NCBI GenBank assembly: GCA_003833135.1
Contig: QZLH01000003.1
Coordinates: 63,216-127,215 of the forward strand
DNA length: 64,000 bases
Source: Oehlia diaphana
Lineage: Eukaryota > Glomeromycota > Glomeromycetes > Glomerales > Glomeraceae
Direction of reading: 5' to 3'
The notes beneath the pieces are model-generated. The model saw only the letters and a list, made by a program, of their open reading frames with translations. It was not told the DNA's origin and searched no databases. The stretch's first letter is position 1. Every line of letters starts with the position of its first letter. A program made the translations under genes and the position numbers. Shown here in pieces: positions 14,661 through 55,642 of the stretch.

Positions 14661-14866
14661 GCCCTCAACTTTTCTTTTTCATTTTACTTCACGATTGCTG
14701 TTAAAAATTTTTTTTTTCTTGAAATAAATAATAGTAGTAAGTAAACTCTATATATTATTGATATAGATTAATTATTTTTTTTTATTCCCTTTCGCTAATT
14801 CCATTTAATTTCCCTATTTCTTTATAATCATATAGTTTATCAATCGTGTCTTGTACGTTATTTACC

Positions 14867-15625
14867 ATGAAGGACAACTCTTTATCTAATGTTGACATAC
14901 AAATTATTAGAACAATAGATAAAAAAATATTGTTCCCTTTGTCGGAAGATATAGTAAGTGATATGAAAAGTAATTTACAAACGCAAGCTAAAGTTAGAAG
15001 AACAAACCGTACACCAAAACCGATGAACAAATTTTTGGTTTTTCGACGTTGTCTAAATCATGTTGTAAAGAAATCCTTGCCTTATGATGGAAAGAATCTC
15101 TCCCGTGTTGCTGCTCACATATGGAAAGAGGCTACCATGGAGGAGAAACAATGCTATGTGGATTTAACTAAATTACTTAAAGAACAACATAGCAAAATTT
15201 ATCCAAATCATATCGAAAAACGCAATAGAAAACATCACTTCAACTTTGTTTATTATGATAAGAATTATAAATCACCCAACCTTCAAATAGACGAAAGTTG
15301 TGGTATTAACATTATTACGGGAAACCAAGAAGGGAATGGAGTTTCGTGCAGTTATAAACAAATCAACTGTCAAGTAATAGAGACAAGTCGTACTAACATT
15401 ACTCAAGAACAAGCAAATGAAATAAACCCTTTACCAAATGAATATGGTCATGCGGAAGGTCTTGATACACTTTTGGCTCAACAGCAATATCAGCAGAATA
15501 GCTTTTATTATTCGGCACCTGAAACATGCCAAACCTTTTACATTGGAGATTCAAACGCTGGTTTTTATGGTAATGATAACTACTATGCTAATTTTCTACG
15601 TACAGAAGGAAACAATTGTGATTAA
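14867..15625 (+). CDS. MATA_HMG-type HMG-box transcription factor
   Basis: Single-exon 252-residue protein starting MKDNSLSNVD; I chose the ATG in TTTACCATGA rather than the upstream GTG at 14846, which eukaryotes would not use. Residues about 45-115 form an HMG box: RTPKPMNKFLVFRR (helix 1, corresponding to RPxNAFxLYR), then LSRVAAHIWKEATMEEKQCY (helices 2-3) and an H-x-x-x-YPNH end. The mating-type-like MATA_HMG family binds the DNA minor groove in the nucleus. The C-terminal half is Asn/Gln/Tyr-rich and probably disordered. Arbuscular mycorrhizal fungi carry many such genes; nothing here marks this one as the mating-type locus. The gene stands alone, with 0.7 kb or more of gene-free sequence on each side. 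Confidence 0.85.
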   Translation: MKDNSLSNVDIQIIRTIDKKILFPLSEDIVSDMKSNLQTQAKVRRTNRTPKPMNKFLVFRRCLNHVVKKSLPYDGKNLSRVAAHIWKEATMEEKQCYVDLTKLLKEQHSKIYPNHIEKRNRKHHFNFVYYDKNYKSPNLQIDESCGINIITGNQEGNGVSCSYKQINCQVIETSRTNITQEQANEINPLPNEYGHAEGLDTLLAQQQYQQNSFYYSAPETCQTFYIGDSNAGFYGNDNYYANFLRTEGNNCD

Positions 15626-26608: not shown

Positions 26609-27170
26609 GTTCAGCTAACAGTTGGGAATAAAATTTTTTGAAAAATCTTAGTTATGGAGATATTTGAATATGTTTATCTTAAATAAAAAACTTTAATTAA
26701 ATTTGCTGTCCAAACGTTAATTAAAAGCTAAATATTCATTCTGGCGAATGTCACAAAACTTAAGAAACATAAATTGATGTAAATTTACATAAAGGACCTA
26801 ATGGATTAATAACGGACTTTATTAGATGATGCAACAAAAACCCGCTTCGTTTTAGATTTCAAATATGATTTGTACTATGTGAGATATTTGTTGAAAACTT
26901 TTAAAAAGGCATTAACATATATCGTGGATGTATTAATAAAAAGCATTTTATTCAATTTATCATGAGATTTGATCGTCAAAAAAAAAATGCATTTTTATTT
27001 TTGATCAATCACGACCCTGCTAATTGATCGAACTAAGCTCAAACCTTCCGGAATATCTGAAACAAAGAATACACGGGAATAAAAAAACAAGAGACAAATA
27101 TGAAACCCATTTTTAAAAATATGATGCGCCCACTTTTTTTAGTGAAACTAAGCGAATGATGTTTGATTGC
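26609..27170 (-). pseudogene. Relic of the cullin portion of the BTB-cullin gene
   Basis: It matches 32359-33150 of the complete gene on the same strand, starting inside the exon that encodes [14 protein letters not shown]. Exon 32505-32654 is mostly deleted and reading frames are interrupted. The segment then jumps from the sequence equivalent to 33150 (GCAACCATGTTTCAACTT) to that of 33803 (ATTCAATAAAATTTGAT), so the BTB exons are absent. Confidence 0.75.
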
Positions 27171-28235
27171 AACCATGTTTCAACTTTAATCATTCAATAA
27201 AAATTTGATCTCCAGAATTGTAGTCAACAAAAAAAAACCACAAAACAGCCGAAGAATTAATCTACAAACAAATGCACTCCTTTATTTAACTTTCGAAAAA
27301 TACAAACATTGCCTCCTTTTTAATCTTTCTTTTTAAGAAATTTGGAGAAAAAAACATGGTTGGCAAAATTATTATATAAATAATTAATTCGTGAAATGCA
27401 CATATTCGTTCATTTTAGAATTCGGATCCATGTATCCATTATCTGTGTATACGTACGGATAACGGATTGCGGATACTCATTTTATTATTCGGGTAGTATC
27501 CACGGATAGTCCTTTTTTTATTAAAAAAAATAATGATAATTTAATTCTTTGTTATAAAAATAGGCTAACCCTGTCTTTTTTAATATTTTTTTCTGCCCTT
27601 TCCTTCTCTTTCGTCCTTTTCCTATATCCCTCCTCCTGGACCTAGACTTCGGTCTCTTGGATACTGGGCTCTGGAATTGTAAGCTGAAAAGAGGTTTTTT
27701 TTAGCAACGTGCTAATATTCCTTTGTTTTTACTTTTTAGTGATTTGGATTTGAATTAGATCTAATATAGGAAGACTATGAACGATGAAACATAATGTCTT
27801 AAAATATTAAATATTATTATAAATTATTTGAGAATAAAAAATAAAATTATAAACCCTAGATATTACTTCGTTATCCGCGCTATCTGCATTATCCGAATCA
27901 TCCGTGTTATATGGATATGGATTACTCGTTCAATTTTTTTTATAAGGATTACGGATATTGTATTTTATCACGGAAACATATCCACGAATACATGGGTCTA
28001 AACTCTAGCTCATTTTTATTAAGCAAATCTTACTATATTTACTTCAAAGAACTGAATTACAGTATGTCTTTAAAATTAAGTCAATCTATCGATTTTTTTA
28101 GATTAAAAATTGTATATGAAAACCTAGTTTTTTTAGCGGGGGTTGAATATACATTTATATTTGAATCCTAGCTAATAAAATGCATGTAACATTTTAATAG
28201 AACTATTTCTATATTTTCGATGAGTTTTGCCATAT

Positions 28236-29452
28236 TCAATCCAACTCTACCGCTTCATGTGTGCACTCCTCATCTGAATCCAATATTACGATAATTTCTT
28301 GGTATCTTCGTTTTCTCTTTTTGATAGATTGAGTAATTAAAGGTTTATTTTCAGTATCACTTTCAAAATTATTAACTTCATTTTTAATGTCTACATTAGT
28401 AGCAGAAGAGATCATTTCTTGGTATCTTCGTTTCCTCTTTTTGACAGATTGAGTAATTAAAGGTTTATTTTCAGTATCGCTTTCAAAATTATTAACTTCA
28501 TTTTTAATGTCTACATTAGTAGCAGCAGAAGAAGAGGTAGACGCCAGGGCAGACGAAGTAGAAGTAGTAGATGTAGATGGGGAAAACGTAGATGAGGTAG
28601 ATGTAGAAGCAGAAGCAACTATCGGAATGAGCCAATCAGCTAAACGATAATTAATGTGAAGTACAGCCAATGGTTCATCATCTCTTACTATTTTATATGA
28701 TGAGCAATCACCGTAACGTTCTATGCCTTCGGAAAATTTTGTGGTAAGAGCCACGTCAAAATATTTTTTAGTTTCTGAATCTTTACTCCTTTAAAATCTT
28801 TGTTTAGATCATAGCTCAAATACGAACTATAATTTCTTGATGATTCATACCTTTCTTTGACTTTATAGAAATAAACAGATATTATACCAAGTCCACCATA
28901 TTTAGTTCTTTGTGGAATATCCGTTTCAATCCATTCTGTTTTATCGAAAATGAAATCATATCTTATAGTTCTATTTCTATTATGGAAACCTTTAACGATG
29001 CTAAATGATGAATCACTACTTTTTACATAAGAATCGTCATTTCTACCATCTACATAAATTTTGGGTGCGATTTCACTTGTGCTTGGAGAAACCACTATAC
29101 TATAATATGTTCCAGGTCCTGGAACTGCAATAAAAGTAGCCGAGTCGCTAAAATAAATTAATAAATAAATAAATAAAAAGTTATGATTTATTTTAATCAA
29201 GTATAAATTTTGAATTTTTATACCAAAATTTCTTTCGATTTCCTTCGAACACATATGATTTCAATACGTTAGATGCACTGGCCTATTTATTATAAGAAAA
29301 AGAAATCTTTTATTTGAATATGATATATATGATACTAAAAAAAAAATCTAATAATTAATTATATTTACTCCAAGTACTGAATCAGAAATTACATATTCTC
29401 GGAGAGGTATTTCGTTCACTAAAACTTCTAAAGTCCACCTTCCTATTCTCAT
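28236..29452 (-). pseudogene. DUF7918-like nuclear protein, paralog A, one frameshift
   Basis: Exons 29369-29452 (MRIGRWTLEVLVNEIPLREY...), 29224-29282 and 28236-29147 correspond one-to-one to paralog B. A single-base deletion near 28779 (CTGAATC where B has CTGGAATC) changes KIPETKKYFD to IQKLKNILTW and stops 20 codons later; the rest continues in the shifted frame to MALTTKF-type sequence and the shared C-terminus. It also carries a 120-bp in-frame tandem duplication (about 28295-28535) encoding a repeated 40-residue block with KKRKRRYQE, and lacks the TNTSYTASAVY segment of B. Otherwise the sequence is well preserved, so the frameshift may be recent or an assembly error. Confidence 0.65.
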
Positions 29453-30481
29453 CTTTTTCAAACTTTTATCTAAAGTAAGATGAAAATGAGAAATATACTG
29501 TACTTTATAGTCGACTGATTGTTATGATTGTCAAAAAATTTTGAACAATTAACCGTGATTGTTATGGATTTTATGATATTTAAGTTCTATTTATAATAAA
29601 TGACATTATGACTTTTATTTCTCACACTTAGTCTATTACACATTTAGTCTAATTCACATATTAAACAGAGGAGTTCTACGATTTTGTTACGTGTCACAGT
29701 ATTTGCCAGGTATAAAATCATCCTTATATATCCTAAATTTATCCCCAAATATTTTTTCAAAACAATTTTTTTTGAAATAATGGAAGTTGATCGATCTACT
29801 AATTAGAAATATGTTATTGAATTGGCACGATAAATAAATCATAATACAGTATTTATAAATTCTATCGTGATTTTTAATGAATCTATAACTCGGCCGTTAA
29901 ATTATAATATAATTAGTAATATTTTTGCCTGAAGATTTTGTTCCAAGATATAAAAATAATATTCTTCTTGAAGCAGAAACTTGGTATTAGTGTAACTTGT
30001 AAAAGTGGGAATGGAATCTATTTAATGAATAGCATTAATAGCATATTAGTGAGGGTTATATTATTGCTTGAAATATTTGACGCTTGTATTAAATAAGCAA
30101 GGTTTACAATGAATATATAAGAATAAGAAGAATTTGCCGAGAGCGCCGTGATTATTAAAACGGTAAAATGTTTTAAACAAAGCATCTGAACTTTAATTTC
30201 ATTTGAACAACAACAAGCAATCTGATTAAAAGATCCAAAAACCATTGGACGTTCAGTTTTTTGGTTTTTTTCCTACAATTCATTCAAGTTTGAACTCAAA
30301 ATACAAAAAAGTATATTGAATCCTTGATCTAAATGACTAGATACTGTACATCGATTACAGTATTAGTCTTTATTTAATTTATACGGGACATTTCTCAAAA
30401 TGAAAATGACGATATAAATTTGATGTAATTATATCACGTAACGATTTTGACACAACAATATTATTCATTCAATTAAAACAT
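29453..30481. other. Intergenic part of unit A
   Basis: Positions 29940-30245 match 37735-38125 of unit B (for example ATGAATAGCATTAATAGCAT). No coding support; the frame at 30018-30245 is within this duplicated non-coding block. Confidence 0.5.
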
Positions 30482-31082: not shown

Positions 31083-33808
31083 TTAACATACTTTTCTATA
31101 CCCCTTATCTACATACTCTATATATTCTCTTACTATGAGACTATCAATTGCTTTTTTAATAGCAGAGAGTTTTGGAAGGAATTTATGTTCAAATCTCTTG
31201 ACAACTTCAGCTACTAATGAATTACGTCCAATTCCTCTATTACAACGTATAATTTGATAAACTGCGCCCTACAAAGAATTATTATATCACGTAAGATAAT
31301 AGTAATGAAATATCAAAAAAACATATACAAACCTCAATTTGGAACTTCCTTTTACGCTCAAGTCTACGTTGGAGTTCAAAATGAAATTGCATTGCTTCTT
31401 CGGGATCTTTTAATGTGATTTGAAATGCTTCACTGTGGGAAATGAAAACGTGACATTAAATTTAGATCACGGGTAACTTCAAAGATGTTCATGAACCACC
31501 TACCTATTGAACTCAAAATTCAAGTCGTACGTTGTGTTATCAAAAAGTAACAGTTTTAAATCAGTTAAATATTTTAGTTGTTGATCCAACAAATCTTGGT
31601 TTATACCCGTATTCTGAAGCAATTCTTTACGGGTATAAGAAGTGTTTTTATTGTACTGTAGAAGAATGCTCATCTGATAGGTTGATGCCTATGGGAAAAT
31701 TTTATTTAGTTCTACTTATTAATATAATGATTTCTAAAAAAAAAGCCAATTTATTTCACCTGGAATACTTTTAGTGTCTCTAGGTAATTTGCTTTTAGTT
31801 CACCTTTTGATAAATGGTGTAGCAAATTTGGTCTACGGGAAGGATATTTGTCTTTATAAAATTTCTTGAAACGTTGAAAAGTTTTCTCTATCTGTGAAAA
31901 TAAAATATAATAAGGCAACCAAATATATACTAAGACAAGAAAATTCACGATTTTAACACACTTCATCTGGAATGATCAGGTCGGAAACAACTGGTGACAT
32001 TGGCAAGGCTTCCATATCTAAAATGTAAAAATCAACTATTGAAAAGACACAACAACAGTTTACAGTTAATTGATAGAATGATTATTTAGTTAAACAACAA
32101 AATTATTGCACCACCTTGTTCTGCATCATCAGTATTCAAATGTTTCTTGAACTGATTATTAAGATCCTTACTTAATCCAATATTATGGAACAAAAGTCGC
32201 ATTTTGGATGTATATTCGAGACCACATTCATTCTATATAAGGAACGCAATATTAAAGCAATTCAGATATTAAGATTAACCAATATGCTGACCAAACCTCT
32301 AATCTGGAAATCATGTTCAATTCCGCCTCCTCGGAGAAATAGCTTTGAGTCAAAAGACGTTCAGCTAACAGTTGGGAATAAAATTTTTCGAAAAAATCTT
32401 TGTCACGGAGATATTTAAATATGTTTATCTTAAATAAAAAAACTTTTAATTAAATTTGCTGTCCAAACGTTATTTAAAGCTGAATATTGTTCTTGATCGC
32501 TTACAATATTGTTAATAACATCATTGTTATCGACTATTGAACTTTTTTCATTCCGGCGAAGAAATATGTCACAAAATTCCACAAGCAATTGTGATGGTGA
32601 TGAAAAAAATGGGTTGGTGCAAAGTACGTTGCGATTGATAAATTCACGGCAAAACTAAGAAAACGAAAATGATGTAAAGTTATATAAAAGGACCTAAAAC
32701 ATGTTAACTGTAAATGAATTAAAAACGGACTTTATTAAATGATGCTACAAATCCGGCTTCGTTCTCGAATATGGTTTGAACCATGTGATGATATTTGTTG
32801 AAAACTTTTAAAAGGGTATTAACGTATATCGTGGATTCCTATAGAAAGTATAAATAAAAAAGCATTTTTATTTAATTTGTCATGAGATTTGATTGTCAGA
32901 AAAAAAAAATTCTGAACATACTACAGAGCATGCGTTTTTATTGTTGGTGATCTCTTGGATGGAATCATGACCTGTTATTCGAACATGTTTTTCAAATCGT
33001 GATCGAATTAAGCTCAAACCTTCCGGAATATCTGAAACAAAGTATACATGAAAATGAGACAAATATGACACCCATTTTTATAAAAATACGATGTACCCAC
33101 TTTTTTTCAGTGAAACTAAACGAACGATGTTTGATTGCAACCATGTTTCAACTTCAAGTAATTTTGTGGACTCTGATAAGTACATGTCAACAAGGTATCC
33201 TTCTAAGGAAGTAACCAATTGTGAAAGCAAAATCTCATCGGCCGCTCCAATCAAATCCACAAAATCAACGCTTGTATCGCAAAGTGGCACCGAAACCTTA
33301 CCGGTATAAATGTATCTGCAAATCAACAAAAAGGTCACCAAATACTGTATTAAAATAATCAGAAACTATTAACAAACTATTAATATCATGTGCATTACTC
33401 AAGGAGCAAATCAAATATTTCCGGTGATATATTCTCTTTTCGAAAGATAATGATTCCGTTTGGATCTTTTCGCCCCCATTGATCTGATAGTGCTATTTTA
33501 AAATAATCACTTCGTTCCTTCAGAATCAATTTGTGAACTTTAAACAGTTTTTGGTTCCATTTATCGCCTGCAATTATGTGAACATCAACGCCAATATTCT
33601 GTCGCTGATATTCCTGAAAAACGTCTCCAATCTCCCATTCCTGAGTAATAAATAGCTTAAGATTGGCTATTGCTTCCTCGACATTGAGTCGATAACTATA
33701 AAATTCGAATAAATTTCATACATGATATAAAGAAAATAATCTATTCATAATTTTAAGTTACCTATTTCTTCTCGTAGGTCTAAAGTGGACACGATGATTT
33801 TCGTTCAT
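31083..33808 (-). CDS. BTB domain-cullin (CUL1-type) fusion protein
   Basis: Thirteen exons: complement(join(31083..31268,31333..31432,31504..31688,31760..31891,31962..32017,32115..32232,32297..32428,32505..32654,32731..32838,32922..33031,33101..33315,33399..33695,33762..33808)). The sum is 1836 nt, 611 residues, with no stop and every intron phase-compatible with GT-AG ends. Residues 51-155 are a BTB/POZ fold ([55 protein letters not shown]). From about 188 it is cullin: [78 protein letters not shown] (CUL1-like), then the winged helix ending [11 protein letters not shown]. It lacks the N-terminal cullin repeats that bind Skp1/adaptors. Residue 558 is Arg where cullins carry the neddylated Lys. 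Expected role: RING ubiquitin-ligase scaffold with built-in substrate receptor. The alternative is two truncated genes abutting; open phase argues against this. Donor 32730 (GTCCGT) is weak. Confidence 0.8.
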
Positions 33809-34445: not shown

Positions 34446-34910
34446 CATCCCTACAGGTTCAAGCCCCAAAGTCAAACCAAAACCTGACTCTCCGTTAACA
34501 ATTTGAGTAAGATGTTCCTTGCCCTGATCCATCTCCACCCAGTTTGCCATTGATTTGTCCGCAATGTCCACACGTCTTAGAAGTGTACTCCTCGGTGCAC
34601 TTGATGACCTTGCAATACTTGTACTCTCTTAACTTGTACAAAAGAAACATTCAAATCTGAAATGTGACTAGGTTAGCATTGCACGGGCTGTCCTTGATTG
34701 GATTTTTCTTTTATTCTTGAGCACCATATGTGATATTTCGAATTTAGGTAGCAAAATGATCTTGTAATTCTGACGGCCAGCTGGTGATGGCACTTATCTA
34801 TCATATTATGGATTCATTGTATGAATTGTAGCATCTTTTCCCCAATCAAAATCTCTTTCTCTTGTTTGTTCTTCTCAAAGCAAGATCCTTGTCACTCTGT
34901 ATATACCACG
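34446..34910 (-). pseudogene. Fanzor/TnpB-like RNA-guided nuclease relic
   Basis: The minus strand reads, with frameshifts, CHHQLAVRITRS, then NYKIILLPKFEISHMV, KNKRKIQSRTARAMLT, stop, SHFRF, then YKLREYKYCKVIKCTEEYTS, KTCGHCGQINGKLGG. The E-x-YTS-K-T-C-x-x-C-G block is the zinc ribbon of OrfB/TnpB and of eukaryotic Fanzor proteins; the preceding LLPKFE...M...R-x-I-x-S-x-T-x-R-x-ML stretch is their RuvC region. The second CxxC pair and the terminal Asp-bearing NGARN-type motif are not present, so it is a dead C-terminal fragment. It has no counterpart at the same position of duplication unit A (27890-27960). Confidence 0.7.
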
Positions 34911-35276
34911 AATACATGGATACACGGATCTAAACTCTAGCTTATTTTATTAAGCCAATCTTATTATACAATATTCACTTCAAAGAACTGTTACAGTACA
35001 TATTCTGAAACGGTCTTTTGTTCACTAGAATTAATAAAAATCTGTTATATGAAAAATTGAAGAAAATGGGAATGAGTTTTGAATTTTATGAATTTTTTTT
35101 TTGATTATACATTTATTTTTGAATGCTAGCTAATATAATGCATTTAGATATTTAGGTTAGCTAATATTTATAGGGCTATCACGTAACCTTTTTTAATACA
35201 ACAGGAACAAAATACTATCTCTAGAACATTAAATATTTAGATGACTACATTATTGAAAAATAAAATATTTATCATA
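34911..35276. other. 3' flank of DUF7918-like paralog B
   Basis: Similar to 27960-28235 of unit A (CACGAATACATGG, AAACTCTAGCTYATTTT). No gene. Confidence 0.55.
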
Positions 35277-36426
35277 TCAATCTAACTCCACCATTTCATG
35301 TGTGCACTCCTCATCCGAATCCAATATTATGATCATCTCTTGGTATCTTCGTTTCCTCTTTTTGACAGATTGAGTAATTAAAGGTTTATTTTCAGTATCG
35401 TATTCAAAATTATTAAATTCATTTTTAATGTCTATATTAGTAACAGCAGAAGAAGAGGTAGACGCAGGAGCAGACGAAGTAGCAGTAGTAGATGTAGATG
35501 GGGTAGAAGTAGATGAAGTAGATGTAGAAGCAGAAGCACAGGAATTTTGTGTATTTGTTCGGTAAACAGCAGAGGCCGTATAACTCGTATTAGTAGCCAT
35601 CGGAATAAGCCAATCAGCTAAACGATAATTAATGTGAAGTACAGCCAATGGTTCATCATCTCTTACTATTTTATATGATGAGTGACCAGCGTAACGTTCT
35701 ATGCCTTCGGAAAATTTTGTGGTAAGAGCCACGTCAAAATATTTCTTAGTTTCTGGAATCTTTACTCCTTTGACATCTTTGTTTAGATCATAGCTCAAAT
35801 ACGAACTATAATTTCTTGATGATTCATACCTTCCTTTGACTTTATAGAAATAAACAGATATTACACCAAGTCCACCATATTTAGTTCTTTGTGGAATATC
35901 CGTTTCAATCCATTCTGTTTTATCGAAAATGAAATCATATCTTATAGTTCTATTTCTATTATGGAAACCTTTAACGATGCTAAATGATGAATCGCTACTT
36001 TTTACATAAGAATGGTCATTTCTACCATCTACATAAATTTTGGCTGCGATTTCACTTGTGCTAGGAGAAACCACTATACTATAATATGTTCCAGGTCCTG
36101 GAACTGCAATAAAAGTAGCCGAGTCGCTAAAATAAATAAATAAATAAATAAAAAGTTATGATTTATTTTAGTCAAGTATAATTTTTGAATTTTATACCAA
36201 AATTTCTTTCGATCTCCTTCGACCACATATGATTTCAATACGTTAGATGCACTGGCCTATTTAATATAAGGAAAAAAATCAATCGTTTGTTTGAATATGA
36301 TAAAAAAAGGGAGAAATCTAATAATTAATTAATTATATTTACTCCAAGTACTGAATCAGAAATTACATATTCCTGAAGAGGTATTTCGTTAACTAGAACT
36401 TCTAAAGTCCACCTTTCTATTCTCAT
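35277..36426 (-). CDS. DUF7918-like nuclear protein, paralog B (intact)
   Basis: Exons complement(join(35277..36126,36198..36256,36343..36426)), 330 residues, in phase. It starts MRIERWTLEVLVNEIPLQEY; a beta-rich N-terminal domain follows (VLKSYVVEGDRKKFW, GTYYSIVVSPSTSEI, AKIYVDGRND, FDKTEWIETD, GGLGVISVYFYKVK), like the fungal DUF7918 family: a conserved beta domain with a cytoskeletal-free, unknown role. Then comes a helical stretch (FDVALTTKFSEGIERY), a Ser/Thr/Ala low-complexity linker (about residues 220-265), a basic KKRKRRYQE (nuclear signal) and IIILDSDEE, a hydrophobic-acidic pattern typical of SUMO-interacting motifs, ending MVELD. Paralogs lie at 28236-29452 and 54101-55064; the C-terminal signature is shared by all three. 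Function unknown. Confidence 0.7.
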
Positions 36427-37115
36427 CTTTTTCAAACTTTTTTATGTATAAAAATCTAAAAAAAGTGAAAAATATACAGGACTTTATAACCGATTGTTAA
36501 CATTTGTGATTTGTAATTTTTCGATATGCAATGATGTAATGTTATGATAATTGATGATTAGGTAATTCTTTTGTTCTATTTATATGGTTGAATTGTATTT
36601 TTGTTTAAAATGACATTATGTCTATAATTTCACATATTGGACGAATCGTTTTCATAATCCTAAATTCATTCAAAAAATAAATATTTTAGTCTTGTAGAAC
36701 CAATTTAATTATTTGTTCTGCATTACATGTTTATAAAGTCATAAAAAAAAATTTTTTATAAATCCAAAACAAAAATTTGATTGAAAAAAAGCATTATGGA
36801 TTAATTTTGTTTTTCTTTTATAAATTAGTTCCTCACAAATATTATATAATGAATATCTAAATTACTAAAAATTATTTTGAAGCATATCTAATGTTTTATT
36901 TCCTATTTTTAGAAACTGTATAATAGAATCAAAAGTAATACAAAATAAACTGTAAACCAAGTCGCCTAAAAGACAACTTCACTCTGATGGTAAAAAAAAA
37001 AAAAAAAGGAAAAAACGACAGGAAGGTACGCCAGTACCCAAATGTCTGCACCAAAAAAAACGAAAAAGAGAAATAAAAAAAAACTAATTACGTAACTAAA
37101 TGATTATTATACAAT
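36427..37115. other. Spacer upstream of paralog B
   Basis: No gene; A-rich. It presumably includes the promoter of the minus-strand DUF7918-like gene. Confidence 0.45.
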
Positions 37116-38708: not shown

Positions 38709-41700
38709 ATGGAAAGCACTGTAGTTGAAATGGAGGGAGTAAAAGGACTAATAACGGGAATAAATAACAATATGTTACCAACATTATCAACAACAACAGC
38801 AAATGCAAGAAAAATTAAATTTAAAATGATAATGTCGAGTCTTGTTTATGGTTTAAAGAATGTGGACGTACTCGGACTTGAAAAAAATACAAATTATGGG
38901 GAAAAAGCTGAGAAAGGAATTGAACAAATTATAATTTCTCAATATATTGATACTCATAGTAAAGAAAATAATTATGTTGTTACTTATAGTGAAGAATATA
39001 ATGCAATTATTGGATGGCTAGCTAATATCGAAGAGAATGGACAACAACAACTTGACTTGTATTTCAACCTTAATCCACCCCACAAAATTTATAAATTTGC
39101 ACTATATCAAAAATTTTTATTATTATGTTATGGAAATAGGTTTAAATTTCGTAAGTATCTTTTATTATTACAAAAATATGCTTTATAAACAAAACCAACT
39201 TTATAATAATTATTTAATTTTAGGTGTAGGTCTTATTGATTTTGACAAAGGTCAATTTCTTCAACTTATGCATGCGGATAAATTATTTGTTTCTTCGAAT
39301 GATGAAATTTCGATTGGATTTCTTTCAAATGGAGATTTAATTATAGTAATATTAGATAAAATATCAATAAATTACAAAATTTATAAGTATCCTTTTGTTA
39401 ATAATAGACCAACAACAAATACAATTCCTCAAATATATGATATAAAAATTCCTAAAAACATAAAAGAACATCATATTGGTTGTCTTTTGTATCAAACAAA
39501 GTTATTTCTTTTTAATGAATATGGATTTACTCAATGGAATTTACTGACTATGACTTTTGATATGGAATACCGATATTTACTTGGTGATTCACTTAATGTT
39601 AATATACATAATATAGTAATAAATAAAAATCAAACATTATTAGCATTAAATATTAGTACAGAAGTTGTAATATTTTCAATGGAAACTGGAATGTGGATTT
39701 CAAGATATGGTTAGTATTACTTTAGTAACTATTTTAATATCTGATAATAATCTTATTTACTTTTTTTTTTTTTATTCGTAGACGGCATTCCAATAGAATT
39801 TGTAAGTTTAGATGATGATTCTGAAGGATTAATCATTAGGACATACTGCAATAATGAAACTTTTTACAAATTTCTAGATCCTTTTCATACCTCTGATGCG
39901 ATTGATATTAGTGATAGTTTTGGCAACTCTCAAAATATTATTATAACTAAATCAAACAAAAAATTTTCTGTTATTGAAAATAATATTTGGATCACAGATG
40001 GGTTGAATAAAAATATATTTCAACAAATGTTAAACATTACCTATCATAATAATATTTATACTTTGCCAATTTTCAAAACTATACAAGATATGCTTAAAGA
40101 TATCAATAATAATAAGAATAATGATAAATTTCCAGAAAATCATATGATTCAATTAGGTGGGGAACTATTTCAATTTATTATTGAAAGAAAAACTTCTAAT
40201 TTAGTTAAACTTATTGGAATTAAAAATTCTCAAAATAATGATAAATTGGAAAAAAATCAGAATAATTATTCTTTAATTTATTTTAAATATGATGACATAT
40301 ATTCATATAGATTATTGAATAATCAGGATTTGGCATTAATTACTAAACAAGGAATCTTTATTTATACAGTTGAAGATTCATTAAAACTTCGATATTTTTG
40401 GAATAATAAATATTGGAGTTCACGTGATTATCAAAAAATGTTAAATGATGAATTTAATGATTTACAAACTTCATTACCATCACCAAATTTTATTAATATA
40501 TTTAGAATGATTGATAATAGAAAAGATAAAGATGAAGAATATAAGGCATTAATTTTAAATATTATAAATGATCCAATTGAATTTTCAAAATTTGGATCAG
40601 AAATATTAAAAGTAGTAATTAATGAAAAAAACGATTTTATTATTCATATTATTCAATTAATCTTTGATAAAATTATTGAATTAATTAAAAAGAATTCAGC
40701 AGATTACAGTTACATGGCACTTATTAGTTTATATTTACCTAAATTATGTGATCATTATTCTCATTTAGTAACAAAATATATTATATATACATCTATTCCT
40801 ATTTGTTTATCTATCAAAAATTCAACAAATACTTCCCTTCATGCATATTCAAATAATATTTATATTGAAAAATCCATTCCATCAAATAATAGTTATATTA
40901 AAAGGTTAATATCATTTTATAAAAGTTTAACTCATCATTTAAAAATTAAGGAAGAAATTATTAGTTTTATTATTCCTTTTCCTCAAATTTGTAAATATCA
41001 AGATAATAATTATAATAATTGGAATGAAATTTTATATAAACCAAAACCTATTCTTTTTTATAATATAGATACCAATAATTTTTATAAATGGTGGAATTTT
41101 GCTGCTATTATAGATTTTAAATGGAAAATTTTTAAAAAAATTTATTATTTAATTTGGTTATTTTATACTATTTTTTTTCTTTGTTTTGCATTAGCTTCTA
41201 CATTAGAACAAGATGATAATAATATACTTTTTATAATTTCAATTTTACTTGGTTTTATACATTTAACTTTTGAGATTAGACAATGTTTATGGAATCCAAA
41301 ATTTTATTTTACTGATTTATGGAACTTATTTGGTAAGTTATTAATATACAAATATTTTGTGTATATATACAGTACATTATTATATTTAATCTTTTTATTA
41401 TTAATAGATGTAGGGGCATATTTTTTATCTATTATAACATCAATATATTGGCTTATCCATGGAAAACCAGCACTTTGGATTATAGCATTTTCTAATTTAT
41501 TATTAAATATTAAATTTTTATTATTTTTTCGAGTATTTGAATCATTTGGAATTTATTTTGTTTTAATGATTGGGGTTGCTAAAAAGGTTTTTCCATTTTT
41601 AATAGTCTTATTTTTTATTATATCTGGATTTGCTCACGCATTTTTCATTCTTTTAAAACCAAATAAAAATAATGAGGATAATTCTATTAATCCGGATGGA

Positions 41701-42518
41701 ACTATTCCTACATTAATTCAATCTCCTAATTCAAATACAAATATGTTTAGTTTGTTTCCAACTTCACTTTTAGCTATGTATTTACTTATTATAGGTAATA
41801 ATTTATTTAATTTATATAATTATATAATTACTTTTAATCAAATATTAACAATATATATATATATAGGTAACTCTGATTCTTTATTACCATGGACTTCTCA
41901 TAAAACTTCTCCTTCGATGGCATTTTTTTTAGTCTTATTTACATTTTTTACGGTAATTTACCTTATGAATTTGTTTATTGGATTGCTTAATGTGGCGATC
42001 GTAAATTATGATAAGAATGAAGAATTTTTACTTCAAAAGGCAAAGGTAAATAAATATTAAATATTTTTATTTTTAAAATTTTAATATCATATATCTGACT
42101 TATTATAAATTTTTTAAAAAAGATTATTATGGAAATTGAATTATTTTACATGTTGCCTTATCAAAGATGTAATAAAAAATGGTTTCCAGATTGGATGTAA
42201 GTACAGTATATTTTAAACGTTTAATATCTCTAATTTTTTCTAATTATATCTTATTTAATTATTTTTAGTCATTATGATATACCTGTTAATAAGGTTTATA
42301 AATTAATTAATGCAATTGATAATAATCGAACTGAATTTAATTCACCTCCATTTATTAGTAATCGATTAAGAAATTTATTAAAAATTCCAGAACCAATTAA
42401 TGAAAATAAATCATTTGAAGAACTTAAGCAACAAATGAGAGATGAATTTAAACAACAAATAAAAGATATGCAAGAATTATTAAATAGTTTTATTAAAAAT
42501 TCGAATACTTTAAATTGA
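38709..42518 (+). CDS. TRP-like cation channel with N-terminal propeller-like domain
   Basis: Seven exons: join(38709..39150,39224..39709,39782..41332,41408..41794,41867..42045,42123..42196,42269..42518); 3369 nt, 1122 residues, all phases consistent. The start is the ATG in GTGACAATGG. Residues 1-480 have repeated beta-strand/turn patterns (IGWLANIEENGQQQLDLYF, NEYGFTQWNL, TEVVIFSMETGMWISRY) as in propeller-type sensors. Residues about 760-1005 hold the ion-transport domain: S1 (WLFYTIFFLCFALAS), S2 (ILFIISILLGFIHLTFEI), S3 (LFDVGAYFLSIITSIYWL), S4-S5 (NIKFLLFFRVFESFGIYFVL, KVFPFLIVLFFIISGFAHAF), pore loop region, S6 (FFTVIYLMNLFIGLLNVAIV). The C-terminus is a short coiled coil (EELKQQMRDEFKQQIKDMQE). 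It is probably a plasma-membrane or vacuolar cation channel; selectivity cannot be read. A relic of exon 2 lies in unit A. Confidence 0.8.
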
Positions 42519-45863: not shown

Positions 45864-47789
45864 TTACCTCTTTCTGTAATAAAACTGTTCAAATCCAACA
45901 TATGAGAATACACTTTCTTCATTCAATTTCTTTAAAATAACATTTCCACTATCGGCGTATTCTTTAATTATTCTATTGTGATATTCTTGATTAAATGGAT
46001 TCCATTCGATAGAAATAGCTTTACCAAGATTTTTTACTATATTACTGAAAAATTCACAAAGTACACTCTCTTCACAATATTTAGGAATTGTATCGTAATA
46101 AAGGAATTCTAATTTAGGTGGCAAATCAGAACCAAATTCGAGCAAGTAGTTTTGATATCTGAAAATTGAAGGTCCAATAATTCCCAAATAAATTAATTCT
46201 TGACATGCGTGTAAAACTTTTGTAAATAAATCAAAGGCTTCTTGGTTATAATATAACAAAATTGGAACCTTAAGTATAAGAAGATTTGGGCAACATAATG
46301 CTATATTACGCAGTATACGATTAGTACCGCTAATACATTCGTTGCTTTGAATGCGCCATTCAATATCAACCATTTGTAGACTCGTATTTGAATTTTTGAT
46401 AATCTCTACTAATTTATTGACGAACTGATCTATATAGAAAATTCGCAAAGTTATTCGTTCGATCTTTACTGATGATGCATCAATAAAGTTAAGAACCCTG
46501 CAAGTATTTGAATCCATGTTTTCGTCATATAATTCCAAATATTTTATATTGTGACAATTAGTAAAGAGTCCCATCTCCAAGTGAACCGTTCCGACCAATG
46601 TTAAATGCTCAATATTTTTAATAGCCTCTGATACGATAGTTAACTCGGGAGTTTTGCAATAACCCATATTGCCTATGAGAGTTAAATGTCGCAATTTTTT
46701 TTGGGATAAAATTAAAGGGAAAATGCCAGAAAGTCCTCCCATATTAACACACCCATGAAAATTCAGATGTTCAATATTGTGGCATAGTTCGGACAAACAT
46801 CTGACAAGTTCACGTGGCACGCATCCATCACAGCTAAAATATGTTAATTCTGGAAAGCAATTGGTAGCACCTGGAAGAGAGGTCAAATATTGTAATTCGG
46901 AATCCATAGAAAGAAGGTCAAAACATTGGAAACCAGAATATTCCAATTCATCCAAATAAAATTTTTTAATAGCTCGTGATGTTCTTACAAACATTTTGAA
47001 TATTTCTCTGTATACCAAAAATTGTTGGTATTTTACAGTATCACTCATAATTTGAGTGAAACTTTGTCCTTCTTGTCGACAAAGCCATTGTCTCCATTCA
47101 CGACAAGCAGAATATAAAAATCCAACATCCAGATTTTGTAAAAATGATGCATAATTGTAAGCCGGTCTTAAAAAATATTCATTTGGAAGTGAAATTCCAG
47201 ATTCTAACAATTTATTCTTTACATCATCCTTAAAACAGCTAACATAGACCCGCATTAAAGAAAAGATCTTTTCCTGTTTTGTCTCTGATTTAAAATCTCC
47301 TTCAAATATGAATTCAAACGGTTCTGACCAAAGAACGTGAATAGCAGCATACCACCATGATTTATTTACGAGAATACAACTAGACAAATCTTCATAACAA
47401 AGAAACTTGAAAATCTTTATAAGAGTTTCGGTTGAAAGAAATCGAATTGGAGGAATCTTTTCATATTCAATTCCAGTTTCAAAATCTCTTGTATCATGTT
47501 GCATTGCTTGAATAGACGTATCTGTTAATGTTGACACATCCGTTTGCCCTACTAACATTTCGACCATCGGAGGTTGTCGTTCCAGATCTTGAATATCATT
47601 TTTAAGTTGTACATAATTAGCATTCTGAGGTTGAAATTTCTCTAGGCTTGTTTGTTCATGTATAACTGTGTCATTTGATACAGATTGGTTTAATAATCGT
47701 GTTTCGACGTTCTCCATTAAAGTATCGACCTGCTCAACCATTTTATTATTATTTATATCAGGTCCATCTAAAATGGACGATTCCGCCAT
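45864..47789 (-). CDS. F-box/LRR-like protein 1
   Basis: 641 residues from the ATG at 47787-47789 (MAESSILDGPDINNNKMVEQ); the frame stays open upstream to 47966 but without an ATG. Residues 1-110 are polar and probably disordered. An F-box follows at about 115-158 (FLSTETLIKIFKFLCYEDLS, CILVNKSWWYAAIHVLW), the Skp1-binding motif. The rest is leucine-rich: LTYFSCDGCVPRELV, IEHLNFHGCVNMGG, LRHLTLIGNMGYC, NIEHLTLVGTVHLEMG, NIKYLELYDENMDS, divergent LRRs for substrate binding. Role: substrate receptor of SCF (Skp1-Cul1-F-box) ubiquitin ligases, a family hugely expanded in Rhizophagus. The final codons AGAAAGAGGTAATT could hide a donor, so the annotated C-terminus may be short by a small exon. Confidence 0.75.
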   Translation of the reverse strand: MAESSILDGPDINNNKMVEQVDTLMENVETRLLNQSVSNDTVIHEQTSLEKFQPQNANYVQLKNDIQDLERQPPMVEMLVGQTDVSTLTDTSIQAMQHDTRDFETGIEYEKIPPIRFLSTETLIKIFKFLCYEDLSSCILVNKSWWYAAIHVLWSEPFEFIFEGDFKSETKQEKIFSLMRVYVSCFKDDVKNKLLESGISLPNEYFLRPAYNYASFLQNLDVGFLYSACREWRQWLCRQEGQSFTQIMSDTVKYQQFLVYREIFKMFVRTSRAIKKFYLDELEYSGFQCFDLLSMDSELQYLTSLPGATNCFPELTYFSCDGCVPRELVRCLSELCHNIEHLNFHGCVNMGGLSGIFPLILSQKKLRHLTLIGNMGYCKTPELTIVSEAIKNIEHLTLVGTVHLEMGLFTNCHNIKYLELYDENMDSNTCRVLNFIDASSVKIERITLRIFYIDQFVNKLVEIIKNSNTSLQMVDIEWRIQSNECISGTNRILRNIALCCPNLLILKVPILLYYNQEAFDLFTKVLHACQELIYLGIIGPSIFRYQNYLLEFGSDLPPKLEFLYYDTIPKYCEESVLCEFFSNIVKNLGKAISIEWNPFNQEYHNRIIKEYADSGNVILKKLNEESVFSYVGFEQFYYRKR

Positions 47790-47966
47790 CGACCTTTTAG
47801 ATTCGGCTAAGGTTAAGGTGTATATTTTTGGCAATAATGATGAATTAAGCTTTTCAAAAGTTGTTGAATCTGTTGAGTTTTTTAAAGTTGATTTTAAACA
47901 TTTTTTATCTTCACCAACCACCTTAATTTCTATTCCAAAAGAAATAAAATTTATTAACAATTTCAA

Positions 47967-48886
47967 ATAAAAAAATATATAAAAAATAAAATAAAAAAAT
48001 TAAGAAGATAAATACCGTATGGCAAAATATTTTCCGATTGTTCCATTTTTATATCTTACCGATATGCTAACGTCGATCAAAATATTTTGGTGTAATAATT
48101 AAAAAAAGTTTCGTGCTACAACAAAGTTAAATCTAAAATTAAAAAAATATATATTATTTAAAAAAAGATTTAACGATACGTTTCGGAGAAAAAAAAAGAG
48201 AAATGTTGTTCGAGATTTTCAGATAATCCTTTGATTAACTTAATAACAATTATATAAGCGTAACAACTATCGTTATATTTAGTTTAGATAATTTCTCAAT
48301 TTTTTTGGCACTTTTCGATAACATTAAAGAAACGAGAAATATTTAATATAAGCTGATCAAAAAAAAAAAAAAAGGAGAGAGAAAGAGAAAAAATTATTTT
48401 TTTTTTTGGGTAAGTCTCCGCACTATTTATTTTTTTTTTTTATATAAAAGTGGAAATTTATTATAGATATCACGTGCTAATATGGTTACGCGAGCTATTT
48501 GTACTAATACTTAAATTGTATTACAATAATGTGTCAATTTTTAGCATTACTAATATTTGTGCTAATATCATGTGACATAATAACAAATAATAGAAATTGG
48601 GTTAAGGGGATCGCTCCTACTTGTTTCAAGCGATTAAATTTGTGAGAATTTAAATGAATTACATTTTATTAATTTATCTCACACCAAAATTCACCCAATT
48701 TTGTTAAAATTGGGCTCAAAGCGCTTGCATTGCATGTCGCTTCGATTCAAAGTGGATTATCATTTTGAATTGAAAGGAATAATTCAAAGTTCGTTATGAT
48801 ATATTCGATCGAAACTAAAGAGTTAACGTGCGAATAATCTAGATATATCTATATTTGAAAAATTAATTAGGAATAAAACAAATCTT
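47967..48886. other. Spacer between F-box genes
   Basis: No gene. A small palindromic patch CACCCAATTTTGTTAAAATTGGGCT lies at 48690-48714. It probably contains the promoter of the 45864-47789 gene. Confidence 0.45.
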
Positions 48887-50563
48887 TTAATCAATCATAA
48901 ATAATAATATAAAATACCTTAAATTGCACCGGTAATAATCAAGTCTTTTATCATAATCAAATTTTGTAAAAGCAGGGTTGATTAAACCAGTAAAGAAATA
49001 ATCTTGAGCAATCTTTGAATGTTCGTGACCTGGAAACAAATTTAAATCAATATTCAAAGGAGCGTTCAATCTATTTGATGCACTCCTAAAGAATAATTCC
49101 AAAGATTCAACAGAATAATAAATTGGAACATTCAAATGTTTTAATACTCTTAAATTTGGAGGTAAATTATTTCCTAATAATGGTAAATAATAATCTTCGT
49201 CGAATATTCCACTATTAAGAATTCCAAAATATTCCAATTTAACACAATGTTTAAAAATTTCCAATAAATAATTAATAGATTCACTATAATTATTAATCCA
49301 ATTCATCTTCAAAATGATAAGATTTGGACAATGATTTATGATACTTGAAGTTAAATCAACAAAACCGACATAATCTTGAACCAAACGATGATTCCAATGT
49401 AAAACAATTTTTTTTAAATTTGTTGTTTTTGAAATTATTAATGACCATAATTTAAAATACGAAATTCCTATGTCAACAAGAAGATATTGTAATTTCGGAA
49501 ATTCCACATTCGCTAAAAGTTTAAAAATATCATAACTTTGATTATAACATTGATATTTACTAACTACTTCCAAAGCGACAAGATTTTCAAAAGAATTCAA
49601 CTTTTTAATTGGTAATATATATCTTCCGTCGATAGTTAACCATTCAAGATATTTGAAAATCTTTTCAAAAACTTGTCGTGTTTCAGGAGAATAATCATAC
49701 AAATATCCTTGTAAGATTAAATATTTCAAATGATTTTGTGAGGAAAGGATTGATATTTTATCATCAATATTAACAAATCCAGGAGCAAAGATTAAGTTTT
49801 TTATTTCTTTACACGAATAAGAAATTTTTTGAAGAAATTCTATGGGAGTATTATCATCGGTTCCTAAACATTCCAATTTAGTTAAACATTTTGAAGCTCC
49901 AGGTAAATCAGGTATTTGATTGACGATTGGGTTGATAACACGATTAATAAGACAATTTTTTAAACAATGATCGTCACACTTTTCCCCACATTCCAATTCT
50001 TCTGAAAATTTCTTATTTATCAAATATAATCCCTTAATATCCATACTTTGACTCATAAAAAGTTTACATAATTCAAAAAATAGTATCCTAATTTGATGTA
50101 AAAGTAAACTAGTTTCTACTGAAGATGCAAGTTTATATTTAAATCTTATACCTAACCAAGCACGACAACCTAGGAATAAACTTATAATATCTAAACTTTG
50201 CAAAAAACTCGGATAATCGTAATTTGGATATTTTGTTTTATAAAAACCCACAATTCCAGCATTCGTTAATTTAAATTTTGATTCTTCAGGTAAACAATTA
50301 ATATAAGTATCAACAAGGAGCGATAACTTTTTAATTGATTTTGTTAAATACATATTTTTTAAACTTCTTCCTCCCGTTAAAGTTATGGTCTCTTTATAAA
50401 TGTTTTCGAATGGTTCCATCCATAACATTGGAATTGCAACTTGACATAGATATCGATTAACAAGCGCACAAGAATGTAAGCTATGAAAATCCAAATCCTT
50501 GAAAATTTGAACTATAGTTTCCGTTGCGAGATTAGGTAAAGTTTCATTTCGTTTTTTTCCCAT
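48887..50563 (-). CDS. F-box/LRR-like protein 2
   Basis: 558 residues from ATG 50561-50563 (MGKKRNETLPNLATETIVQI). The F-box is at residues 8-50 (LPNLATETIVQIFKDLDFHS, CALVNRYLCQVAIPMLW). Then helical regions and divergent leucine-rich repeats (LTKLECLGTDDNTPIEFL, LKYLILQGYLYDYSP, LEWLTIDGRYILPIKK, LVALEVVSKYQCYN, LKKIVLHWNHRLVQDY, NLIILKMNWINNYSE, LEYFGILNSGIFDEDY). The same architecture as its neighbour suggests old tandem paralogs. Near the end TGCAATTTAAG is followed by GTATTT, and an acceptor-like CAAATATAG lies downstream at 48849-48857, so the last eight residues (YFILLFMID region) may be intron read-through. Confidence 0.75.
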   Translation of the reverse strand: MGKKRNETLPNLATETIVQIFKDLDFHSLHSCALVNRYLCQVAIPMLWMEPFENIYKETITLTGGRSLKNMYLTKSIKKLSLLVDTYINCLPEESKFKLTNAGIVGFYKTKYPNYDYPSFLQSLDIISLFLGCRAWLGIRFKYKLASSVETSLLLHQIRILFFELCKLFMSQSMDIKGLYLINKKFSEELECGEKCDDHCLKNCLINRVINPIVNQIPDLPGASKCLTKLECLGTDDNTPIEFLQKISYSCKEIKNLIFAPGFVNIDDKISILSSQNHLKYLILQGYLYDYSPETRQVFEKIFKYLEWLTIDGRYILPIKKLNSFENLVALEVVSKYQCYNQSYDIFKLLANVEFPKLQYLLVDIGISYFKLWSLIISKTTNLKKIVLHWNHRLVQDYVGFVDLTSSIINHCPNLIILKMNWINNYSESINYLLEIFKHCVKLEYFGILNSGIFDEDYYLPLLGNNLPPNLRVLKHLNVPIYYSVESLELFFRSASNRLNAPLNIDLNLFPGHEHSKIAQDYFFTGLINPAFTKFDYDKRLDYYRCNLRYFILLFMID

Positions 50564-53500
50564 AATTAAAATCTTTCTTTTTTTTTGATATCAGTTTTTA
50601 CAGTTTTGAAAGAGAGAAAAAGTTTTATCAAAAACCTTATCAAATAAATATTATGTCAGGTCACACAAAGAAATCAAACAATCTGGATTGTAAAATGATT
50701 TCTCCTCTATATATATAACTATTAGAGCTGTTAAAAAAATCCGAAAAAGTGACTATATGGAAGAAATGAATGTGATAATATAAATAGAGTTCTATTTGTG
50801 ATAATTACGTCATAATAATCACGTGTAAGAGGGTAATTTATATAACTGATATAACTGATAGAATGTCATGAATTTTTTAAAATCGATCCATACTAATTCA
50901 ATCACAATAATATTGTAAAAATAACCTTTTGTTCTTTTAATTCCTTTCCAATATAGTTGAATAAGAAAAGCATAAAAATCAATTTCAACCGCTAACATCA
51001 TCAATGAATCATCGTATTTAAATTTTTTTTTTTAACTCCGTGTTTATCTTTCATTTAAATGTACTACAATACTAAAAATCATTCTTTTACTTTCATCATT
51101 CTAAGAGTTGTGTCACCAAAAAAATGTTTTTGTTAAAAAAAGAAAATATTTATGGGTCCTCATTCAATGTTTTTTTGTGATATTTGAAGAATCAGGAATT
51201 TTATTGGTTTTGTTTTTATGTATACCTTCTTTTTCTGTCTTCCAAAAACGTCTTCTTATAATCCCTAATTAAGATAAATTAGATTTATCGTCATTCTACG
51301 TGTCCGATCATAATAAGTTGTGCAAATTCAGGGTTATTAGAAAGCGCGACAAACGGACAAAGCGGCTTAAATAAATTTCCGAGAGAAAATTACAAATTCT
51401 TGGAAGTAAATCAAAAACAAAAATAAACAAACAATGAGGTTTTTATGTTGAACAAAGAAAAACTTTGTATCTTGTACGTGTTATTCTTTCTGCGCTATGT
51501 TACATTTATAAGGTATTAATCCTTTAGTAGTAAACAAAATTAATATTAAAATGGGAAAGGCGTAAAATAGATGAGTTCAGCCTTAATATTATTAAAGATA
51601 ATCTGTTTTTTAAATTATCAAAAAAAATTTTCATCTTTTAAACAAGTTTTGCATTTAATTCCTTATAATTAGATTAATTGCGCGTAAAAATATTATATAT
51701 AGATACATAATATTTTTCCTTATTAAAAAGGGGGACCAAAAATATAATATTTTGAACATCAAGAATAAATAATGTTTGTTCATACAATTCACTTCAAATA
51801 ATTCGCAAGATGAAACTCAATTAAAAATTCATTTGTTTTTGTTTATCAAGTTAATGTTATCCAAAATTTGTTAATAAGCCACTGATTTGCCGCTCAAATT
51901 AATCGTTCGGGAAAAATCGGGTAATACAGAAAACCTTTCGAAGAAATTTATATATTTCTAAAATATGTAGACAGAGCTAAACCTATAAATATAATTAACG
52001 TTCCCCTTTATTTCTTTGGCCATTGCGTATATAAAAATTCAGTACCATTTATATCTTGAATTAAATAACAGAGAAATATTTAATTTCCATTACCAATTAA
52101 GTAAGAATTCTCTTGAGATTTCTATCATTTGTATATTGCAATTTTTTGAATCTTTGTAACGTAGAATAAAACCATCCGTAATGTATGGAATTTTATATTT
52201 GAAATACTGGGACAGATGTGGTATTAATAATAAAATCGAAAAAAAGCATGTATTTTTTTTAGCTTGATAAATCTCCGATATACAATTCTTAAAAATACTT
52301 ACCTGATTGCATTTAATTCTCTTCCATATTTTGTTTGTGAATTCTCAAGTTTCACTATTTGATATTCATTTATATATAAAACGTGACATAATTTATCATA
52401 TTATAGTATGTCTTTTGGAACATTTAATGAATGATTGTAGAGATTATCACTTTTTGTTTAATTATAATAATAACAAGAAAGTAATTAATGGGTATTATTA
52501 ATACCTGAATAGCAGGTAAAATTGTACAGCATAATGACAATCTTTGGTTGTGTATATCTTCAATACATTATTATAGATGGATCCGAGTTGTTGTGTTGAT
52601 TCGCTTCAGGAGGGCGTTGGTTCGTTTCAAAGCGTTAACTTTGAGCAATAGAAATAAGACTACGATTGATATTGTTAAGAATATAGATACATTTGAAATT
52701 TTCTATCGTCTCTCTTTGTCGCTATGTTTAGAAAAGAAACAAATTCAGAAACTTAGAGCTGTATGCATCATTAAAAGCATTCCTATTGTATTATTTACCT
52801 TATTTAATTATTTAATAGGTGACTTGTTTAATTTTTCATTGTTATGATGTGATCAAGTTTATGATTGATCATCAATAAGGTGATACTTGCATAGACTTCT
52901 AGTTTTCTATTCACGTGTGATAAATTAAATATTTTGGCGTGATTCAAAGTCGGAGAATCTAATAATTTTTACTAACCCTTAACTACAATTTTCATGCGTA
53001 AAAATTTTAAAAGTAAAAATAGACTGAGTTAGCGAACATTTAAAGGGATGAAGCATCTCAGTCCTAACCTAAAATGGGAGCTCCTTCCTGTTATTCCGCT
53101 ATTTAATGTTGTTTCCAAAGACTATCTAGCTGATCAGTATAAACCATTTGCATTTTCTTAAATATATCCAAATTCCTTAACCATTATGTTCTATTCTTAT
53201 TCTATCATTATATCCAAAAAAGTTACTATGAATTGATCTCTTACTGCATTATGATAACAAGTATGTCGTACTTATGATATTGCACTGCGTAGAATGAAAT
53301 TATGAAAATCAAATGTACAAAATGTCGCTGCAATGACTGTTCTACGGCGACCCGTATAACACTCGTATAATATGTCTCATCAGCCCTACTTTCTTTAATA
53401 TCTAACACGCGATCTATGAATGGAAATGTCAATATTTTCAGCATATCTTATTCTTTGTAGAGATTTTTTTTCTTCGATTGATATTTTTTAACTTCATTTA

Positions 53501-55064: not shown

Positions 55065-55642
55065 TTTTTTTAAATAAACGTAAGAAAAAAACTTTTGTAT
55101 GAAAATTTAACGTATTTTATAGTGTCAATTGTCAATAAACATTCATAAACATTAAATTTGATTGGATAGAACCCTTTTATAGCCGAATTTTTATATAACA
55201 GATAACGAATCTCACAATACAACGAATCTTCAAATAAACCGAACTTTTTTTTTTTTAGTTAACGAAGATTTTTTGCAAGATAAATTTTAACATAAAAGCA
55301 ATGAATTTTTTTCAAATAAGCAAATTTTCTATTATAAGATATTTTATCAAAAGATTGCATGTTTTTTTACAAAGATGTTGATTTTCCTATATTTTACCGC
55401 ATTATACCAAATTTCCCACAATACAAAAATAATTCAACTTCATTACGTTTACACAGGATCTTGTGACGCGATCTAATATTTTAAAAAATCTATTAGATGA
55501 TAAAAAAGTTAAGAATTAAAGTGTGGCCGGAATATTGTTATTAAGCGTAAACTATTTGTTTTACATGTTTTTTATAGATCAATTTTAAACACTTCAGTTT
55601 AAACAAGACTTGGGTCATTGTTAATCGTGATCGGCAAAAGAG
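55065..55642. other. Spacer
   Basis: AT-rich, no gene. Confidence 0.45.

Follow-up and report, generated by a model that had tools for sequence, protein, structure and literature searches.

Cullin-RING ligases exchange their receptors on a common scaffold and are switched by NEDD8. Cullin repeats 1 and 2 bind SKP1/F-box, and in CUL3 ligases a BTB protein binds the N-terminal repeats of the cullin non-covalently. To our knowledge, the closest analogue of the gene described here is CUL9, in which a cullin element without its first repeat stands in a fusion protein. Cul7 and Parc arose by gene fusions, and they are the fused cullins named in passages of a 2009 survey of the cullins (PMC2785787); the model of CUL9, as shown in a passage of its structural description, comprises CR2, CR3, 4HB, C/R and WHB, with the first repeat absent (PMC11257990). 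Here we describe a gene from a 64,000-nucleotide stretch of the Oehlia diaphana genome (contig QZLH01000003.1, positions 63,216 to 127,215; hereafter the window), in which a BTB domain is joined to the C-terminal half of a CUL1-type cullin.

A BTB domain joined to the C-terminal half of CUL1

Read on the minus strand from 33808 to 31083, the window holds one open gene of 13 exons and 12 GT-AG introns of 64-83 nt each. Its joined exons amount to 1854 nt including the stop codon and encode 617 residues with zero internal stops. Pfam places BTB (PF00651) at residues 42-156 (E=1e-14, profile positions 1-106 of 110), Cullin (PF00888) at residues 147-522 (E=2.8e-81, 274.6 bits, profile positions 229-617 of 620) and Cullin_Nedd8 (PF10557) at residues 550-607 (E=7.7e-11, 42.4 bits against a cut-off of 36.9), and the Pfam matches of the protein include neither BACK nor a substrate domain. 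A profile made from four fusion BTBs matches solved BTB domains, the best at 5.5e-6; what we take to be the CUL3-contact motif is by eye not evident in the fusion BTB. The cullin portion begins inside repeat 3 and ends with the winged-helix B (WHB) domain. Repeats 1 and 2 are absent, with the Pfam profile being entered at position 229 and the match to the CUL1 chain 9xzj_C beginning at residue 302 of that chain. Among solved structures, the best-matching cullin is CUL1 with 274 bits, followed by CUL2 (208), CUL4A (139) and CUL3 (132).

The fusion in other Glomeromycotina

A search of 5.8 billion proteins, of which the 7998 candidates with the most words in common were scored, returned 38 matches. 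Ten of these carry BTB and cullin in one protein, nine of them with the Nedd8 domain too: four from Rhizophagus irregularis, four from Gigaspora margarita and one each from Racocetra persica and Dentiscutata heterogama. Their identity to the window fusion is 84-91% in R. irregularis and 37-40% in the Gigasporaceae, with 36% for the short protein P0031. Rhizophagus, with which the window is counted below, belongs to the Glomerales, and Gigaspora, Racocetra and Dentiscutata belong to the Gigasporaceae, in the Diversisporales. In the databases the fusions are named 'Cullin-domain-containing protein' or 'unnamed protein product', or carry just a serial number. Searching again with eight fusions aligned (26 proteins from 7998 scored candidates) gave no additional fusion. 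When the R. irregularis protein P0001 was compared with the window's own genome, BTB and cullin exons adjoined only at the fusion locus among the best 71 of 672 candidates.

We conclude from these comparisons that the gene is almost certainly a conserved BTB-cullin fusion. The original prediction, made from the letters of the window, had proposed a BTB domain and a CUL1-type C-terminal half in one gene; the open frame, the Pfam domains and the ten proteins of the same architecture bear this out, as the CUL1 structure match bears out the type of cullin, and the profile start and chain match bear out the missing N-terminal half. It had also held an accidental abutment of two broken genes to be unlikely, with which the strong Pfam E-values and the ten database proteins agree; we reject chance abutment on the strength of these ten. 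The same fusion in other Glomeromycotina, which it had suggested looking for, has been found in R. irregularis and in three Gigasporaceae genera. Its remark that no BTB-cullin fusion had been described holds for the titles and abstract openings of the open-licence PMC papers that our full-text searches listed, and in passages of a later R. irregularis genome paper the sole match to 'cullin' is a part of the term culling_limit (PMC10234402).

Gene model and construction of the fusion

The exons of the gene are as follows.

33762..33808, minus strand: exon 1, start codon at 33808
33399..33695, minus strand: exon 2, N-terminal part of the BTB domain, with a phase-2 intron at its end
33101..33315, minus strand: exon 3, remainder of the BTB domain and linker (residues 158-186), the latter of uncertain parentage
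32922..33031, minus strand: exon 4, first clear cullin exon, cullin repeat 3
32731..32838, minus strand: exon 5, cullin, with length and flanking intron positions of CUL1 exon 10
32505..32654, minus strand: exon 6, cullin, with length of CUL1 exon 11
32297..32428, minus strand: exon 7, cullin, with length of CUL1 exon 12
32115..32232, minus strand: exon 8, cullin
31962..32035, minus strand: exon 9, altered strand, equivalent of the RBX1-docking strand of CUL1
31760..31891, minus strand: exon 10, cullin
31504..31688, minus strand: exon 11, cullin
31333..31432, minus strand: exon 12, cullin
31083..31268, minus strand: exon 13, WHB/Cullin_Nedd8, with Arg at the NEDD8-acceptor position and the stop codon at 31085-31083

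A spliced alignment driven by P0001 gives the identical 617 residues with identical exon borders, and the first 15 residues are identical in the four R. irregularis proteins. The start at 33808, the end at 31083, the minus strand, the 13 exons and the junction intron between 33101 and 33031 had all been predicted correctly, and only the predicted lengths of 1836 nt and 611 residues have to be corrected to those given above. The difference of 18 nt is the spacing of two possible acceptors of exon 9, the later of which was probably used in the 1836-nt model. The earlier acceptor, with the exon starting at 32035, yields a stretch of 12 residues common to the four R. irregularis proteins (position 2 being D or E). 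Loss of the RBX1 strand, a consequence of the later acceptor, was rejected, given that the exon start at 32035 restores most of the strand and fits R. irregularis. In CUL1, the equivalent strand docks RBX1.

CUL1 of the same genome is found on a different contig, C850; its assembled form has 18 exons and 770 residues. All nine introns in the cullin part of the fusion coincide with CUL1 introns in alignment column and phase, and three exons are identical in length between the two genes (108, 150 and 132 nt). On the BTB side, 16 of 28 BTB loci examined in the same genome have a phase-2 intron within a few residues of the one that follows residue 114 of the fusion, the 28 being the top loci by score and including one that gave a neighbouring BTB and was still counted. 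Because introns match in both parts, a BTB gene, of the kind expanded in this fungus, and the 3′ half of CUL1 were joined with their introns in place. The join was an intron-preserving event at the DNA level, which speaks against a retrocopy.

The intron at the junction follows residue 186. It shares phase 1 with CUL1 intron 8 but stands ten alignment columns further on; it may be a hybrid intron, with some coding sequence lost. The best score of a linker query (residues 155-200) with CUL1 rows was 9.0 bits, for residues 176-200. The original prediction held that residues 158-186 could belong to either parent, and this may still be so: residues 158-175 have no cullin match of note among the CUL1 rows, and residues 176-186 could be assigned either way.

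One origin or two

The BTB domains of the Rhizophagus and Gigasporaceae fusions are 57-62% identical over 108 residues. Elsewhere in the window's genome, the four best full-length BTBs reach 44-48% identity to the fusion BTB and shorter matches up to 56% (890 candidates, 150 scored, two of those being the fusion itself). A BTB tree unites the nine fusion BTBs that it contains in a single clade (100/100), apart from one Dentiscutata BTB and 26 BTBs of the window's genome. P0004 and P0019 were left out of this tree, as were two of the 28 loci, one having returned a neighbouring BTB and the other being partly unreadable.

The cullin parts give a different picture. Those of the Gigasporaceae fusions group with Gigasporaceae CUL1 at 98/95 in a first tree (27 of the 38 matched proteins and the window) and at 98/90 in a second, made without the Boothiomyces CUL1 and two Dentiscutata fragments. 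In a third tree, made without eight rows and with linker and WHB left out, they join Diversisporales and Entrophospora CUL1s more loosely (86/89). The branch of the Rhizophagus fusion cullins measures 1.17-1.42 changes per site across the three trees. When all fusion cullins were forced together, the approximately unbiased (AU) test gave p values of 0.056, 0.008 and 0.0098 in the first, second and third tree, respectively.

The disagreement between the BTB and cullin trees would fit a single fusion whose cullin half was later converted by CUL1 in the Gigasporaceae, two captures by the same BTB gene, or a long-branch artefact. We weakly favour a single fusion origin. That the same BTB gene captured the 3′ half of CUL1 twice, in the Rhizophagus lineage and again in the Gigasporaceae, is a history of lesser probability that must still be given real weight: the Gigasporaceae fusion cullins sit with Gigasporaceae CUL1 or, in the third tree, with Diversisporales and Entrophospora CUL1s, their grouping with the Rhizophagus ones is rejected in the second and third tree, and the linkers of the two families show no significant likeness (residues 155-200, at most 1.4 bits). 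However, the first tree does not reject that grouping, long-branch artefacts are to be expected on so long a Rhizophagus branch, and gene conversion of the Gigasporaceae cullin half by CUL1 would yield the same trees; besides, the fusion BTBs are one clade, and both groups share the order of BTB, short linker and a cullin start within repeat 3.

The cullin half and its possible function

To see what the cullin half retains, positions near-invariant in CUL1 were counted by segment, the segment borders being approximate and chosen by us. The window fusion keeps 21 of 32 such positions in repeat 3, 42 of 72 in the four-helix part, 13 of 21 after the RBX1 strand and 16 of 21 in the following winged helix. 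The five Gigasporaceae fusions counted keep 10-12 of 26-27 in repeat 3, 42-54 of 53-72 in the four-helix part, 14-19 of 21-22 after the strand, 17-19 of 21 in the next winged helix, 2-9 of 11-14 in the counterpart of residues 523-556 and 18-26 of 33-37 in the WHB. In the RBX1-strand segment, four of them keep 11, 10, 10 and 11 of 12 positions. The NEDD8-acceptor lysine, in the motif IVRIMK and which we take to be Lys720 of human CUL1, is present in all 15 CUL1 rows, and CUL1 of the window's genome has it too. At this position all five Rhizophagus fusions, window included, have Arg; Gigaspora P0010 and P0019 have Gln, whereas P0008, P0015 and P0018 have Lys. P0031 stops before the position, and two Dentiscutata fragments without BTB carry Lys. 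Since the lysine varies among the fusions, neddylation at this site would be dispensable in some members, or function would differ between members.

We propose, with a probability of about one half, that the fusion serves as a dedicated cullin-RING ligase scaffold. The C-terminal cullin half would still carry RBX1, and the BTB domain would occupy the place of the docking repeats 1 and 2 for SKP1/F-box. Such a fused BTB could dimerise and bring in substrate, either directly or through pairing with BTB-family receptors, and the choice of receptor would thereby be freed from SKP1 exchange. The Rhizophagus branch would have to work without NEDD8 on the canonical site. The role of a 'single-chain receptor-scaffold', as named in the original prediction, is likewise putative. 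The same genome encodes CUL1, CUL3 and matches to the zf-rbx1 RING, nine of 13 of which are over the cut-off by their own score.

Several features weigh against this proposal. The cullin half is fast-evolving, with 200 of 425 residues (47%) identical to the genome's own CUL1, whereas three canonical CUL1s of the same group are 81-86% alike. The window fusion keeps 7 of 12 near-invariant positions in the RBX1-strand segment, 3 of 13 in residues 523-556 and 17 of 35 in the WHB; the fifth Gigasporaceae fusion keeps only 6 of 12 in the strand segment; and, of 10 fusions in which its position is covered (window included), 7 have lost the NEDD8 lysine. In the Rhizophagus fusions, as seen in the window copy, the strand equivalent is shortened by two residues and has no SWP tryptophan. 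Because of the Arg at the acceptor position, the shortened strand and the lost tryptophan, a canonical neddylated ligase appears unlikely in the Rhizophagus branch.

The same changes can be read in another way, namely that the protein is a pseudo-scaffold, which binds RBX1, DCN1, CAND1 or BTB proteins without catalysing ubiquitylation and tunes CUL1 or CUL3 ligases by competition for partners in common. We consider this possible, if doubtful. The replaced acceptor lysine, the altered Rhizophagus strand, the poorly kept residues 523-556 and WHB of the window, the WHB being moreover its fastest-changing exon against R. irregularis, and the absence of repeats 1 and 2 are all what a decoy would allow. 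But a pure decoy would need neither the lysine, kept in three Gigasporaceae fusions, nor the strand segment, kept at 10-11 of 12 positions in four of the five.

The last exon

The WHB is encoded by exon 13, and among R. irregularis copies this exon varies almost like a module. P0002 and P0003 have 4 differences over 529 residues of exons 1-12 but 21 over the 61 of exon 13 (Fisher p 5.5e-19); for P0001 and P0003 the figures are 30 of 533 and just 3 of 61. The window carries a third exon-13 type, with 20 of 61 residues different from P0001 against 34 of 556 elsewhere; its exons 1-12 are ~94% identical to the R. irregularis proteins. Within the window, a search for further copies of exon 13 gave only chance-level matches. 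In the genome no further close copy was found, the other matches being more distant cullin exons on CUL3 and CUL1 contigs. Exchange between copies or strains would explain the pattern, as would alternative terminal exons in R. irregularis.

Taking these observations together, one may picture a NEDD8-independent one-chain ligase, in which the BTB is a plug-in port for the large BTB family of the fungus, working by BTB-BTB pairing instead of SKP1 exchange, the WHB exon is swapped between strains and the CUL1 half was perhaps captured twice. We put this forward as a speculative and, as a whole, rather unlikely combination.

Neighbourhood of the fusion

Together with the orphan gene that lies upstream, the fusion has undergone a tandem duplication, of which two features besides the intact fusion can be recognised.

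35273..36499, minus strand: orphan gene region upstream of the fusion, with a copy at 28231-29524 that is ~88% identical
26609..27301, minus strand: decayed partial second copy of the fusion, lacking the BTB and with stops and deletions in the cullin part

The relic lies ~4 kb downstream of the intact fusion and matches it in BLAST pieces of 84%, 71% and 91%; in it, the upstream region runs directly into the linker and cullin part. Such copies do die at this locus, as its visible decay tells, but that the intact gene is likewise a pseudogene in decay, or two broken neighbours joined by an error of annotation, is hardly credible given 617 codons without stop or frameshift, exons 1-12 so close to the R. 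irregularis proteins, first 15 residues that these proteins share, and an architecture found both in them and in three Gigasporaceae genera.

The open frames of the orphan copies at 28231-29524 and 35273-36499 have a low-complexity part rich in Ser, Thr and Ala and no Pfam match over the cut-off; a third copy of the family lies at 54280-55069, with ~67% DNA identity. At 34495-34650 on the minus strand, ~700 bases before the fusion begins on its upstream side, there is a zinc-ribbon fragment (PF07282, 27.7 bits against a cut-off of 26.3, E 3e-6), presumably of a TnpB/Cas12f/Fanzor-type protein. Two long open frames with F-box-like matches stand 12-17 kb from the fusion on the minus strand, at 45867-47999 (E 1.7e-4, below the cut-off) and at 48890-50590 (E 3.4e-6, above it). 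On the plus strand there are an HMG-box open frame at 14828-15622 (E 3.2e-7) and an ion-transport open frame at 39751-42057 (E 3.8e-7). Elsewhere in the genome, contigs C814 and C1370 both bear repeated cullin pieces. The C1370 piece tested is CUL3 and the C814 pieces are CUL3-like by eye, which suggests duplicated or split CUL3 copies in the assembly.

Comparison with known systems

As a natural fusion in two orders of mycorrhizal fungi, the gene tests whether the receptor-docking half or the NEDD8 lysine of a cullin is indispensable. It links the expanded BTB genes of arbuscular mycorrhizal fungi with the ubiquitin system, and it is a natural template for compact degraders.

The C-terminal parent, CUL1 of the Glomeromycotina, resembles the fusion from repeat 3 to the WHB and in nine intron positions and phases. 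It differs in having repeats 1 and 2 where the fusion has a BTB domain, and in its NEDD8 lysine and RBX1 strand, which are replaced and altered, respectively, in a fusion of 47% identity. On the other side, BTB genes are a high-copy, signalling-related class in Rhizophagus, R. irregularis included, according to a passage of PMC8647823. The fusion shares with this expanded family the BTB domain and, in 16 of the 28 best-matching loci, a phase-2 intron near the same place. Unlike its other members, the fusion BTB precedes a cullin and falls in a clade separate from the 27 other BTBs in the tree.

CUL3-BTB ligases likewise bring BTB and cullin together within one complex, but in the fusion the cullin is of CUL1 type, lacks the N-terminal repeats and is covalently bound to the BTB, in a genome that has CUL3 too. 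CUL9/PARC and CUL7 are alike in that a cullin element stands inside a fusion protein. Their partners, however, are ARM and RBR (DOC in CUL7) and not BTB, they are vertebrate proteins, and their origin is independent of that of the fusion described here.
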